From the NCBI RefSeq assembly GCF_016888135.1, contig NZ_JACSWB010000276.1, positions 1-64,000 of the forward strand: a DNA stretch of 64,000 nucleotides, in the 5' to 3' direction. Positions 636 to 5,883 of the stretch are shown in pieces. The notes beneath the pieces are model-generated. The model was not told the DNA's origin, did not search any database, and worked only from the letters and a program-made list of their open reading frames with translations. Source of the stretch: Leptolyngbya sp. CCY15150. Its GTDB lineage: Bacteria > Cyanobacteriota > Cyanobacteriia > RECH01. Each line of letters begins with the position of its first letter. The first letter of the stretch is position 1. A program made the translations under genes and the position numbers.

Positions 636-1547
636 TTAATGCAAGGCAAAGCGGCGTACGGCCAGCAAACTGCCCATTAGACCAACAGAACTGCCCAGAA
701 CCAACAAAATGAGCGGTAAGAGTAAAGCCTGCTGGGGCGCTAACTCCAATCCTGTAGACAAAAAGCGAATAAAGTCTGCTTGCTGACTGAGCAGTTGCCC
801 TACAAACTCTCGCAGACCTAAGATCAGTCCCCAAGCGATCGCTGCCCCGACAATGCCAAAGGTAATTCCTTGAAGAATAAACGGTAGGTAAATCCAGGTG
901 GTGGTCGCTCCGACAAGCTGCATCACTTCAATCTCGTGCCGTCGGGCCATGACAATCAGGCGAATTGTGGTGGTGATGACAGCGATCGCCGTCATACTCA
1001 GCACGGTGGTCATCCCAATACTGACCCAGTTCAATCCTTGGTTAAGCTGGGCAATTTGGTTGACGGCTTCATTGATATAAAGCACCTCATCGACCCCCTG
1101 CACCTGCTTGAGATAGTCTGCGACCCTTGGCACATCTTCCGGGGAAGCCACTTTCACCGTGAGCTCATCCACCAGTGGATTGCCATTCAGTTGCTGCGTT
1201 GCACCCTGAATATCGGATAGCCCCAAGTCGCGCACCAGGCTATCCCAAGCTTCTTCCTTTGATGTGGGGATCACAGACTTCACCCCAACAATATCCTGCA
1301 AGGAAGGGCCTAGCAGATCCGCTTGTACCCCTGTTTCTAGGTAAACCGAAACTTCTAACTGACTGCCAAACTGGTTGAGTAGAGCTTCGAGTTGCCACGA
1401 TGACTGCAAACTAATGCCAAACAGAAAGAGTAAGACCGTCACCGTGCTGATGGCAGCCCAGTTCATCCAGCCGCCGCGCTTGAGCCCCAAGAGGGTTTCG
1501 CGCAGCAAGTAATCGGACTTGTTGAGAAAACGGAAGAAGCTTTTCAT
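636..1547 (-). CDS. ftsX: Cell division protein FtsX (ABC-type permease)
   Basis: FtsX is the membrane half of the FtsEX complex, which couples septal peptidoglycan hydrolysis to division. The ~303-residue protein has the family layout: a first membrane segment near residues 29-50, a ~110-residue extracytoplasmic domain, then three membrane segments in the C-terminal half. The motif ARRHEIEVMQLVGAT is the conserved FtsX/MacB permease signature. I chose the ATG at 1547; an in-frame TTG at 1559 would add four residues. No ftsE lies next to it. The gene sits 46 bases downstream of the ftsI-type gene on the same strand, so the two probably form one division-related transcription unit. Confidence 0.92.
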   Translation of the reverse strand: MKSFFRFLNKSDYLLRETLLGLKRGGWMNWAAISTVTVLLFLFGISLQSSWQLEALLNQFGSQLEVSVYLETGVQADLLGPSLQDIVGVKSVIPTSKEEAWDSLVRDLGLSDIQGATQQLNGNPLVDELTVKVASPEDVPRVADYLKQVQGVDEVLYINEAVNQIAQLNQGLNWVSIGMTTVLSMTAIAVITTTIRLIVMARRHEIEVMQLVGATTTWIYLPFILQGITFGIVGAAIAWGLILGLREFVGQLLSQQADFIRFLSTGLELAPQQALLLPLILLVLGSSVGLMGSLLAVRRFALH

Positions 1548-1593
1548 AGCAACACTCAATCAGGAACCTAAGATGAACGGAACGGCTTAGCAC

Positions 1594-3432
1594 CTAAGGC
1601 GTAACAGCGCGATCGCGGCTAGGTGGAATTCCATCGATAGCAATCAACGCCTCCATCACCGATCGCACCACGGGTGCTGCAACGGTTGAACCAAAGGTAT
1701 TCTCACCCTTAGGTTCATCAACCACTGCCAAGATCACGTAGCGCGGCTCATCGACTGGAAACGCAGCCACAAAACTGGTGATTTTTGCATATTCCTCATA
1801 CCCCCCTTGTTCACTGGCTTTTTGAGCCGTTCCGGTCTTTCCAGCAATACGATAACCGGGAATCTGGGCTGCTTCACCCGTGCCGTCGGCTACAGCTACT
1901 TCCATCATCTCCATCACCGCCCGCGTTGTGTCCGGGGAGAACACCTGTGGGGGTTCAGGGCGATCCGGTTGCCACTGAAGCGTACCATCGGGTTCTGCTA
2001 ACCCTTGTACTACATGAGGTGTGACTAAGCGCCCCCCGTTGGCTAGGCTGGCATGGAGCTGGAGAAGCTGGAGGGGGGTTAAGGATAATCCTTGCCCAAA
2101 AGCAGCGGTGGCGACTTCAACGCCCACAAAGTCCTCTAGGTCTTTCAGAAAGCCGGCTGCCTCAAAGTCCAAGTCAATGCCCGTGGGCTGTCCGATGCCA
2201 AGGCGCTCTAGCCAGTTGTGGTACAGCGCTGAAGGCAACTGCCGCATGATATGCACCATGCCCACATTGCTGGAATATTTGATCACGTCGGTGATGCTGA
2301 TAGCCCCTCGCCCACCAACGTAGCGGTAGTCTACATTTTCGATCGTCCAGATATCGATGTTAATGCGCCCTTCATCGTAGACCATGTCATCCGGCTGAAT
2401 GGCTCCTTCTTCAAGGGCGATCGCTATGTTGATGGGCTTGAAGGTAGAACCGGGTTCATACACATCGGCGATCGCCCAATTACGCATGGTTTCAGGTTCA
2501 GCTTCGTAATAGCGATTGGGATCATAGGTCGGTTCCGTGACCAGAGCCATCATGGCTCCATCTCGCACATCCATTACCAAAATTGCGCCGCGCTTGGCGT
2601 CAAACTGCTGCATTTGACGGCGCAGGTTTTGCTGAGCGACGCGCTGTAGATGACTATTTAGGGTGAGCTGGAGGCGGAGGTGATCAGGATGGAGCAGCGA
2701 GTCGGGCACCTGAGTGGGCAGGAGTAAACCATTGCCTGACCGACTCACCTGTACAGGATCCAGAGATTGTTCTAAAAGCTCATCCTGACTTAGCTCTAGG
2801 CCTGCCTGGGGATCTTGATCGACATTGACATAGCCGAGAATCGCTCCAAACAAATCTTGCTGAGGATAAAACCGCTGCTGGTAGGGCAAGAGTTCGAGAC
2901 CGTTGATACCCTGATCTCGAATACGTCGGGCAAGATTTTCGGACAGGGCCCGCTCTAGAATCACGCCCGTTTCAGCACTCGTCAACAAAGCTACGATCTC
3001 ACTGGGCGATCGCTCTAGGAGGGGCTCTAAGGTTTGAGCAATCTCTTGCAGCTCTTGCTCAAACATGATGGGGTGGGCATAGAGCGCATACCGCGTCTGG
3101 TCGATAGCTAGGATATGCCCATCTTGATCGACTATTGAACGACGATGGGCATAGGGATCAATGGCCATCACCTGCTGGGCGATCGCCCGTTGCTTGAGAG
3201 TAGGGCCTTCCAAGACCTGTAAGCGAATGAGGTTAGCGCCCAAAATGACGCATCCTAGCACTAAGACTCCCCATACCACCAACAGGCGACTAGGCGTTGC
3301 TACGGGAGCCGTCGTCTGAGGTGGTCGGAGACGGGGCGATCGCTCCCGAGACCTGGAGGAGGAGGGCTGAGACTGGGAAGAGGGCTGTCCTCGACGCGCC
3401 CGGCGACGAGCTAGGGACTTATCGATCGTCAT
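1594..3432 (-). CDS. ftsI: Peptidoglycan D,D-transpeptidase FtsI/PBP2-type
   Basis: This class B penicillin-binding protein of 612 residues cross-links septal peptidoglycan in the periplasm. It has a basic, Ser/Arg-rich cytoplasmic tail (1-48), one membrane anchor (about 50-70), a PBP dimerisation domain (about 90-240) and a transpeptidase domain. The catalytic motifs are all present: STFK with the nucleophile Ser329, SSN at 387-389 and KTG at 532-534. The next upstream gene ends 8 bases before this start and encodes a bitopic coiled-coil protein in the place where ftsL is found in many bacteria. ftsX follows on the same strand. FtsI is favoured over an elongation PBP2 because of the motif spacing and the neighbours. 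Confidence 0.93.
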
Positions 3433-3439
3433 AGGCGAC

Positions 3440-3991
3440 TCAGTACCCTAGGGGTGGACGGGTTGTCGGGGGCGGGGCCAAGTTCTCCGAGGGCTCATGG
3501 GCAGGGCGGCGATCGGACGGAGCCATGAAGATGAGTTGATCTGGATGGGGTACCCGGTAGTCTGAACCTTGCTGATCAATAGACTGAGCGGTTTGATACT
3601 TCAACATTTCCAAAGCAGCGGTCATCTGCTGCTGCTGCCGCTGTAGGGTTTCGAGCTGATGATAGGCCCGTCCCCAATTTTGTTGCACATACACCGTCCA
3701 GCCGTAGACTCCCAAAACAGAGGCTACGAGGGTCAGCATGACCACCGCGGATCCCTTCTGGGCCAAGATTAATCCTCGCAGCCACAGGGGCAGCGATCGC
3801 TGCGGCAGCACCCGCACCGTTGCCGGACGAGCCGCTGGACTTGTAGAGGATGACTGAGAAGACCGTGCAGAGCGAGTCGGCCAAGATTCATGAAGCGATC
3901 GCACCTCACCCTCCCGGCGCTCTCTTCTCTGCCGCCCCGCAGGCGATCGCCCGCCACGATCGTGATCCCTCGGCTTTAGCACAGCAGACAT
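3440..3991 (-). CDS. Bitopic membrane protein upstream of ftsI (FtsL-like candidate)
   Basis: I do not recognise this 183-residue protein by sequence. It has a long Arg/Ser-rich cytoplasmic N terminus (1-75), a single membrane segment near residues 80-102, a Gln-rich stretch (about 110-140) with heptad-like spacing suited to a coiled coil, and a Pro-rich end. That topology, and its place 8 bases before ftsI on the same strand, is what FtsL shows in other bacteria. FtsL is poorly conserved and is hard to find by homology in cyanobacteria. The division role is an inference from topology and context. The ATG start at 3991 is the only good one. Confidence 0.75.
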
Positions 3992-4252
3992 AGCTTACAC
4001 TCCTTACACATCACTCCAGCCCTTCACCCATCGTGGGCAGATGCCGCTGGAAATTGCCTTTAGTCTCGTTAGAAGATTGATGGTGAACTCCCTAGGCATA
4101 GCCTATGGCCATACTGAAGAGAGGGATGTTCTATCCTATCGAAATTGGGTCAAGTATAATCGCAATTCTGCGAATGCGATCAGGTTATAGACCCCTACAG
4201 CGCAATCAGTTCTAGATCAGCCCATCCTTCAGTCTGATAAGCTAGCGCTATC

Positions 4253-4717
4253 TTAGCCTGCTTCATGGCCGATGGCATGACGTTCAAGCCACAGGGTCAC
4301 AGGGCCATCGTTTTCAATCGAGACCTGCATCATCGCGCCAAATTGCCCTGTTTCCACCCGCAACCCACTTTGGCGGAGGCGATCGACAAATTGGTCATAC
4401 AGCGCTTGGGCCCGATCCGGCGGGGCCGCTTGGCCATAGGAGGGACGGCGGCCTTTGCGACAGTCGCCATAGAGGGTGAACTGGCTGATCACCAAAAGCT
4501 CACCGCCTAGATCCAGCACCGAGCGATCGCCCTTAGCCGATTCGTCGCTAGGAAAGATGCGGAGGTCGAGACACTTGCGGGCCATCCAGTCTAATTCTGC
4601 CGGGGTATCGCTGGGCGCAATGCCCACCAGCAGATTGAGACCTCGGCCAATCTGCCCCACCACGTCACCATCTACCCGCACTTGGGAGGCCGTGACCCGC
4701 TGCAGCAGCACCCGCAT
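4253..4717 (-). CDS. dtd: D-aminoacyl-tRNA deacylase
   Basis: DTD hydrolyses D-amino acids (and glycine) mischarged onto tRNAs, a cytoplasmic proofreading step. The protein starts [13 protein letters not shown], as in the family, and is 154 residues long, close to the usual 145-150. The active-site motif SQFTLYGD and the C-terminal N-x-GPVT loop ([11 protein letters not shown]) are present. The start is the ATG at 4717, which shares a base with the stop of the upstream cobW-type gene (TAATG), so translation is probably coupled. A longer in-frame start would only add non-conserved residues lying inside the other gene. Confidence 0.95.
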
Positions 4718-5883
4718 TAGCGACCAAATCCTTTTCCACGGGTTGCCGATGATGGGCAAAAACAGGCATTAATCTGCGATCGCAAGGTGTCGTGGTCGAG
4801 ATCTTGGCCAATCAGCACCAGTTGGTTTTTAGGCGTTGTCGTCCATTCCGTGTCATCCAGGGTAAAGCGGCGACCGCTGAGGTGGAAGACGTGGCGCTTC
4901 GGGCTTTCGTCAAACCAGAGGATACCCTTGGCCCGAAACACATTGCTGGGTAACTCGTTATCTAGAAAATGCTGGAATTTCTTAATCGACATGGGGCGAT
5001 CGCCCTGCACAGAGATGGAGGTAAATCCATCGATCGCCAGGTGATCGGAATGATGGGCATGGTGCCCGTGATCGTGATGGTCGTGATCGTGATGGTCGTG
5101 ATCGTGGCCATCATGCTCACAATGTCCATGGTCGTGGTCACAGTTGCTGTGATCGGCATGGTCGTGGGCGTCGTGAGTGTGAGCATCGTGATCGTGGGCA
5201 GGCGCTTCGGGTTTGAAGTACTGGTCAGACTCAAAGAGCCCCACGCTGAGAATCAAGGGCAGAGGTACTTGGGCATTGCGGGTGCGCATGATCCGAGCAT
5301 CGGGCTTCACGTCCCGAATTTTGACTTCTAGGAGATCGAGATCCGCGTCATCGACCAAATCAATTTTGTTGAGCAACAAAATATCAGCATAGGCGATTTG
5401 GTTATGGGCAGCCTGGCTGTTGAAGAGATCCAGGCTATAGTTTTCCGAATCGACGACGGTGACAATCGAATCCAAACGAGTGAGGTCGCGCAGTTCTGTG
5501 CCCAAAAAGGTGAGAGCGATCGGTAACGGATCGGCCAACCCCGTAGTTTCGACCACCAAATAGTCAATACGATCCTGCCGTTCGAGCACTCGATAGACCG
5601 CATCCATCAAGTCATTATTAATGGTGCAGCAAATGCAGCCGTTGCTCAGCTCCACCATGCTGTCATCGCCCATGCCGGTATTCACCAACAGGTCATTGTC
5701 GATGCCAATTTCGCCAAATTCATTGACCAGAACAGCAGTTTTTATCCCTTCCTGATTCGTCAGGATGTGGTTGAGCAACGTGGTTTTGCCACTGCCCAGG
5801 AAACCGGTAATGATGGTGACCGGTAAGCCTCGCTTAAGGTCATCCATGGACGATGCGGAGGTTGGAGTGATGACTGAGGTCAT
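4717..5883 (-). CDS. CobW/COG0523-family GTP-binding metallochaperone
   Basis: The 388-residue P-loop GTPase belongs to the family that inserts or handles metals such as zinc and cobalt. Walker A is GFLGSGKTT at residues 27-35, the metal-binding motif CICC is at 83-86, and the guanine-specificity motif NKID is at 172-175. A long insert at about 230-281 holds 24 histidines alternating with Asp, a clear metal-binding loop between the GTPase and the CobW C-terminal domain. No Zur box of the TGATAATNATTATCA type is visible in front of it. The stop overlaps the dtd start. The metal is not decided by the sequence; zinc is the usual guess for His-rich members. Confidence 0.93.

Follow-up and report, generated by a model that had tools for sequence, protein, structure and literature searches.

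The gene directly upstream of ftsI in the window, by which we mean the whole 64,000-nucleotide stretch of Leptolyngbya sp. CCY15150 analysed here (contig NZ_JACSWB010000276.1, positions 1 to 64,000), is very probably the divergent ftsL ortholog of cyanobacteria, and an FtsL function is inferred for its product. The initial annotation had proposed FtsL from topology and gene position, and the proposal has gained support from the rsmH-X-ftsI slot and from a 94% profile link to the FtsL of sister classes. Published accounts treat FtsL as absent from cyanobacteria, a gap that the candidate would fill: a passage of a 2020 review names FtsL and FtsB among the proteins absent from cyanobacteria (PMC7766704), and a passage of a 2016 paper describes both as undetected there (PMC4748335). 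As FtsL and FtsB were considered absent, the switching-on of FtsW and FtsI lacked its central regulator in this phylum. A deficiency of FtsI or of FtsW has been reported to cause filamentation (PMC7381316), and ftsI of S. elongatus is listed as Synpcc7942_0482 (PMC7766704). The passage on dcw genes in a further source has these, with the exception of mraZ and ftsA, as generally present and dispersed in cyanobacteria, and does not name ftsL; its data files may therefore hold an ftsL call (PMC8871954). The window gene is unnamed in the open-licence PMC literature found.

The candidate gene (Table 1) has a good ribosome-binding sequence, and 7 nt lie between its stop codon and the ATG of ftsI, which it directly precedes as first described. 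The product of ftsI matched PF00905 (2.8e-77) and PF03717 (3.7e-9) in a Pfam scan, and the reading of the next gene as ftsX agrees with matches of its product to FtsX_ECD (5.3e-15) and to the NCBIfam model FtsX_Gpos (8.1e-61; 205.9 bits, below the cut-off of 225). This position of ftsX is local: it follows ftsI in none of the 31 loci with ftsI among L036-L075, within the sequence fetched, and the arrangement is therefore probably lineage-specific.

Table 1. Position of the candidate ftsL gene, its neighbours and the parts of its product in the window.
Feature	Position	Strand	Basis and remarks
candidate ftsL	3440..3991	(-)	183 aa, stop codon within coordinates, ATG start; open frame, family spread, profile and synteny links
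AAGGAG, Shine-Dalgarno-like	4000..4005	(-)	8 nt before ATG of candidate ftsL; sequence
ftsI, class B penicillin-binding protein	1594..3432	(-)	7 nt downstream of candidate ftsL; PF00905, PF03717
ftsX	636..1559	(-)	follows ftsI; this order is not general
basic cytoplasmic tail, aa 1-78	3758..3991	(-)	charge count, column tally, dN/dS
transmembrane (TM) segment, about aa 79-101	3689..3757	(-)	hydropathy by eye; within AF2 helix 69-141
predicted unbroken TM and periplasmic helix, aa 69-141	3569..3787	(-)	AF2, periodicity, column tally
IFL motif (IFM in window protein), aa 154-156	3524..3532	(-)	column tally; candidate C-terminal beta strand of FtsL
C-terminal PLGY, with invariant Y183	3443..3454	(-)	alignment of 48 members

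The product is predicted to be bitopic, with a single transmembrane helix and the N-terminus inside, an orientation that follows from the distribution of charges (16 Lys and Arg against 6 Asp and Glu in residues 1-78, and 7 against 8 in residues 102-183). The long cytoplasmic tail reported at the outset would thus be a basic one of about 78 residues. In the AF2 monomer, calculated with an alignment of 48 sequences, the helix from residue 69 to 141 is unbroken with block means above 90, and confidence is medium (block means 71-80) over residues 151-180. Hydrophobicity of residues 102-141 peaks at a period of 3.5-3.6, which suits the coiled-coil-like outside helix of the initial annotation and would equally suit any amphipathic helix; in the column tally, hydrophobic positions recur at regular spacing (113, 116, 123, 130 and 134) in the periplasmic half of the helix. 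The model is consistent with a long helix that leaves the membrane and continues as a periplasmic coiled coil, as in FtsL.

Several features thus liken the family to FtsL: the predicted bitopic, N-in topology, the continuous transmembrane and periplasmic helix, the slot after rsmH or before ftsI, a conserved hydrophobic segment after the helix, and profile homology through sister-class FtsL. In the sections of a structural paper that deal with P. aeruginosa FtsL, a long first helix is followed by a short second one and then a strand, the latter two touching the transpeptidase domain of FtsI (PMC7614612). In the AF2 monomer of the window protein the long helix is followed by neither a short second helix nor a beta strand, though the IFL motif, in which F155 is conserved in 45, I154 in 37 and L156 in 40 of the 48 aligned members, could be a strand. 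Where FtsL has its IE..A..LGM helix, the family differs in having a Pro/Gly linker (approximately P..GL..P.P...IFL, with residues 141-150 rich in Pro and Gly), and it ends in GY, the Y183 position being invariant in 48 of 48. A further difference is the long and variable basic tail, of median length 73.5 residues (range 37-125 among the 48), compared with 11 residues in P. aeruginosa and 34 in E. coli (PMC7614612); only its end is conserved, as LPxxxxPLWLRxL at residues 62-74 in the column tally of the 48. The same source describes a conserved basic residue just past the transmembrane segment of FtsL (E. coli R61, P. aeruginosa R38; PMC7614612), and the family carries Arg or Lys at residue 108 in 27/48 and at residue 104 in 10/48 members, positions of uncertain equivalence. 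Foldseek returned no match for the window protein in the PDB, a result expected for a single helix and for this reason evidence neither way. Among three genomes of the genus, dN/dS of the gene was 0.15-0.17 overall, 0.05-0.07 over residues 66-160 and 0.36-0.46 over residues 1-65, pointing to strong purifying selection on residues 66-160.

Searches with the window protein gave a match in 262 of 290 genomes of the class at E<=0.1, the weakest of these being taken without verification one by one. We read 71 loci of the family, made up of the 31 best-scoring ones returned by searches (the window's own included) and 40 chosen for spread across families. In 62 of the 71, ftsI lies downstream on the same strand within about 0.4 kb; two end at a contig edge with ftsI out of sight (L067, L074), and seven have other neighbors (L036, L038, L043-L046, L068). 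Twenty of the 28 class genomes that gave no match were listed, and 19 of these belong to one small-genome family, f2, probably the picocyanobacterial marine Synechococcus and Prochlorococcus; the twentieth (G127) has a contig that ends just before ftsI. We built a profile (A1) of 48 family members, taking the window protein and 47 from the remaining 70 loci. At E<=1 it had matches in 12 of 16 f2 genomes, with E from 4.6e-13 to 0.025, and in each of the 12 the best match sat immediately before ftsI. A frame ending in GY precedes ftsI in 15 of the 16 f2 loci, although in L133 it is inside a longer frame with an uncertain start; in L134 the open reading frame filter listed no GY frame, yet A1 matched there. 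Among named cyanobacterial records, which include Calothrix sp. NIES-4105, Planktothrix sp. PCC 11201, Roseofilum halophilum and Candidatus Cyanaurora vandensis, the gene was seen in 17 of 19 loci, all 17 products ending in Y; in the other two (L190, L206) no such gene passed the frame filter.

The order rsmH-ftsL-ftsI is the textbook setting of ftsL. In sister classes of the phylum, presumably its non-photosynthetic ones, rsmH lies directly upstream with one small bitopic gene between in 15 of 20 ftsI loci. Within the class itself the order rsmH, family gene, ftsI was found in 8 of 110 loci with ftsI: four from genome family f13 (L143, L180, L184, L188), that of Ca. Cyanaurora vandensis (L205), and three whose proteins are members of A1 (L042, L049, L051). 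We take f13 and Cyanaurora to be relatives of Gloeobacter. RsmH was confirmed by PF01795 in L143, L106 and L112. The slot is therefore rare in the class, yet survives in more than one lineage, and the family gene occupies the position of ftsL, between rsmH and ftsI or just before ftsI. In L042, L049 and L051, outside the f13 group, the arrangement is a remnant of the dcw cluster. L188 (G077:C159:30500-35500) has two TGA, one TAG and one TAA codons within the small frame that separates rsmH from ftsI, owing either to an assembly error or to decay of the gene.

The proteins encoded in the sister-class slot provide the bridge to known FtsL. Fifteen of them were combined in a profile (A2), L124 being excluded because its start is uncertain. 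NCBIfam models matched among the 15 were FtsL_Actino (11), ftsL_broad (6) and FtsL_COG5462 (5), and Pfam returned DivIC for 5 of the 15 versus FtsL for 2. For comparison with other phyla, 27 proteins preceding ftsI were taken from 61 loci (L208-L268), of which 29 had no upstream frame passing the filter (75-330 aa, strong transmembrane segment), three (L240, L245, L255) held a clearly different protein, and two (L208, L212) were left out for a GY ending that possibly comes from the phylum's own lineages. The ftsL_broad model matched 26 of these 27 proteins (best 7.7e-19), and hhalign aligned A2 with the set at 98.2% (E about 4e-14). By these comparisons the sister-class gene between rsmH and ftsI is FtsL. 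Its consensus keeps the second-helix motif E..A..LGM, and all 15 members end in Y or F. The two excluded records, titled Proteobacteria bacterium (L208) and Actinobacteria bacterium (L212), encode a bitopic protein ending in SGY before ftsI; this ending resembles that of the phylum studied here, and the titles may be wrong.

Sister-class FtsB is a separate gene, with Pfam DivIC over its cut-off in 10 of 23 genomes searched. A2 also matches it at 90-96%, and FtsL and FtsB are related families. A set of ftsL_broad matches in genome family f46 (L076-L105) was considered as sister-class FtsL and rejected, there being no FtsI match in any of the 30 loci; in G291 and G316, moreover, DivIC exceeds its cut-off at the same places, so that the set came to serve as an FtsB control. 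In four other f46 loci (L113, L118, L119, L122) no FtsL-like frame was found upstream of ftsI; the two of these genomes that were searched for FtsB, G291 and G316, do have it, with DivIC over its cut-off.

Alignment of the family profile A1 with A2 in hhalign gave 94.2% (E 1.1e-7), and 95.4% in the other direction; reversed profiles gave 1.2-1.5%, and 20 column shuffles at most 0.5%. Against sister-class FtsB, A1 reached 5.0% with 12 sequences; restricting these to the 10 above the Pfam cut-off gave 2.4%, and 7 of the 10 gave 0.7%. The 12-sequence set held a sequence of the class from f13, L279, and one below the Pfam cut-off, L280, and the result for the family was unchanged on repeating without them. 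In half-sampling, the medians were 93.7 for FtsL versus 3.6 for FtsB, with FtsL ahead in 30 of 30 samples and a lowest A1-A2 value of 79.8%. The periplasmic part alone also gave 79.8% and the transmembrane segment alone 15.8%, so that the link is independent of the transmembrane segment; the transmembrane region of FtsI, taken as a control, scored 2.0% against A2. The family is thus closer by profile to FtsL than to FtsB/DivIC, and the match to A2 shows its homology to the FtsL of the sister classes and, through these, to known FtsL.

The FtsB place could be taken by a second small bitopic protein, encoded in the same genome outside the window (G000:C174:35762-36157 (-); L146:1501-1896), which has matches at E<=0.01 in 175 of 195 class genomes. 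All 26 members in our profile of this family (A4) match the NCBIfam model 'slr1601 family putative cell division protein' (NF052344), and the AF2 prediction places a short helix after a long one, a layout described for FtsB and FtsL (PMC7614612). Like FtsB/DivIC (PF04977), it shares with the window family one transmembrane helix leading into a coiled-coil helix, from which the window family is set apart by its other gene position and by its low profile match, 1.6% to the slr1601 family as well as the 0.7-5.0% to FtsB. We regard the slr1601-family protein as the strongest FtsB candidate, chiefly on the ground that the FtsL slot is already occupied; profiles give little reason to prefer FtsB to FtsL. 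Against FtsB, A4 scores 90.4% with the 12 sequences, and this match falls to 27.8% without L279, 17.0% with the 10 over cut-off and 10.6% with the 7, and we have lowered the FtsB claim because the match rests largely on this one sequence.

These values leave some room, if little, for the assignments to be swapped, with the slr1601-family protein as FtsL and the window protein in the place of FtsB, the two still forming a coiled-coil pair. For such an exchange speak the 87% match of A4 to FtsL of other phyla, where the window family reaches 48%, the FtsL_COG5462 matches in 11 of the 26 A4 members, the fall of the FtsB match on removal of L279 and the 2.5% of A4 against the f46 FtsB. We consider the swap unlikely, however, as it is the window family that holds the rsmH-ftsI slot and matches sister-class FtsL at 94%, whereas A4 reaches 8.3% there; Pfam DivIC, moreover, is the commonest Pfam model among A4 members (9/26, versus 1 for FtsL), and FtsB was ahead of FtsL in 24 of 30 half samples of A4, the set in that case including L279. 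CyDiv (All2320 of Anabaena) is another division protein of cyanobacteria that combines one transmembrane segment with a coiled coil, described from filamentous cyanobacteria and proposed to be FtsB/DivIC-like; in contrast to the window protein, its transmembrane segment is near the C-terminus and its N-terminus periplasmic, according to the description given of it (PMC4748335).

Compared with the curated FtsL models (TIGR02209 ftsL_broad, NF053549 FtsL_Actino, PF04999), the window family remains below every cut-off. The window protein alone gave nothing usable against Pfam or NCBIfam and no FtsL model over cut-off, and TIGR02209 exceeded its cut-off in 0 of 292 genomes of the phylum. Among the 48 members of A1, FtsL_Actino came first in NCBIfam (6/48, best 1.4e-3), followed by ftsL_broad (5/48, best 3.7e-4) tied with the type II secretion GspM model (5/48, best 0.0033); the commonest Pfam match was Coa3_cc (10/48), and neither FtsL nor DivIC was among the 25 Pfam families shown of 46 matched. 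Directly against FtsL of other phyla, A1 gave a weak and unstable match of 48-49%, with half samples from 0.8 to 82%. With no curated model and a weak direct match, the link to FtsL therefore runs through the sister classes and synteny. One sister-class protein preceding ftsI (G296:C233:40928) is a hit of A1 (E 2.2e-4) as well as of ftsL_broad (E 3.9e-5). A1 found a match in only 2 of 22 sister-class genomes searched, that in G434 being weak and away from ftsI. A search of 146 class genomes with A2 gave 20 places in 19 genomes; of the 15 examined, 13 are the window family, which is thus reached in only 13/146, one is the FtsB candidate and one looks like an anti-sigma protein.

The failure of the curated models and the weak similarity outside the phylum would be expected if an accessory division protein of unrelated origin had taken over the FtsL slot and worked alike. 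We regard this as highly improbable given the 94% profile match with clean controls, and because the family shares with sister-class FtsL an aromatic C-terminal residue and the YxxTVxxQ/E with which the periplasmic helix begins. Still less probable is a co-transcribed membrane protein with no role in septal synthesis: at least 7 of the 71 loci lack an adjoining ftsI, so that the link to ftsI is not obligatory, but the family is found in 262/290 class genomes, stays beside ftsI even in the small picocyanobacterial ones and experiences strong purifying selection on its helix and strand region.

If the gene encodes FtsL, then extrapolation from the P. aeruginosa FtsWIQBL structure suggests that its periplasmic helix would pair with the helix of FtsB, for which the slr1601-family protein is the best candidate, that one face of the helix would contact the FtsI pedestal and FtsW, and that the IFL segment would add a strand to the FtsQ-FtsB sheet. 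A model of the E. coli complex has FtsQ, FtsB, FtsL and FtsI contribute their extreme C-termini to a single sheet (PMC10390529). FtsQLB would thereby position FtsI and turn on the synthesis of septal peptidoglycan. For the basic tail, FtsW or cytoplasmic proteins of the divisome are possible partners, and the Pro/Gly linker in place of the IE..A..LGM helix could alter the contact of FtsL with the transpeptidase domain of FtsI or with FtsQ; that the C-terminal Tyr contacts FtsI or FtsQ is a guess. As a tentative extension, it is possible that cyanobacteria have a complete but remodelled FtsQLB, in which FtsL signals through linker, strand and C-terminal Tyr instead of a second helix, a phylum-specific switch for the septal wall. 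A class-wide FtsL candidate, together with the weaker FtsB candidate, makes the activation of FtsW and FtsI testable in cyanobacteria, and the candidate proteins could be useful for studies of septation in filaments. The family would further exemplify an FtsL that has diverged past the curated models and is traceable through synteny and sister lineages.

Elsewhere in the window, a His/Asp-rich repeat of the HDHDHH type lies at about 5040-5200, inside an open reading frame on the same strand (4717-5883 (-)) whose product we take to be CobW-like; the repeat is a possible metal-binding linker.
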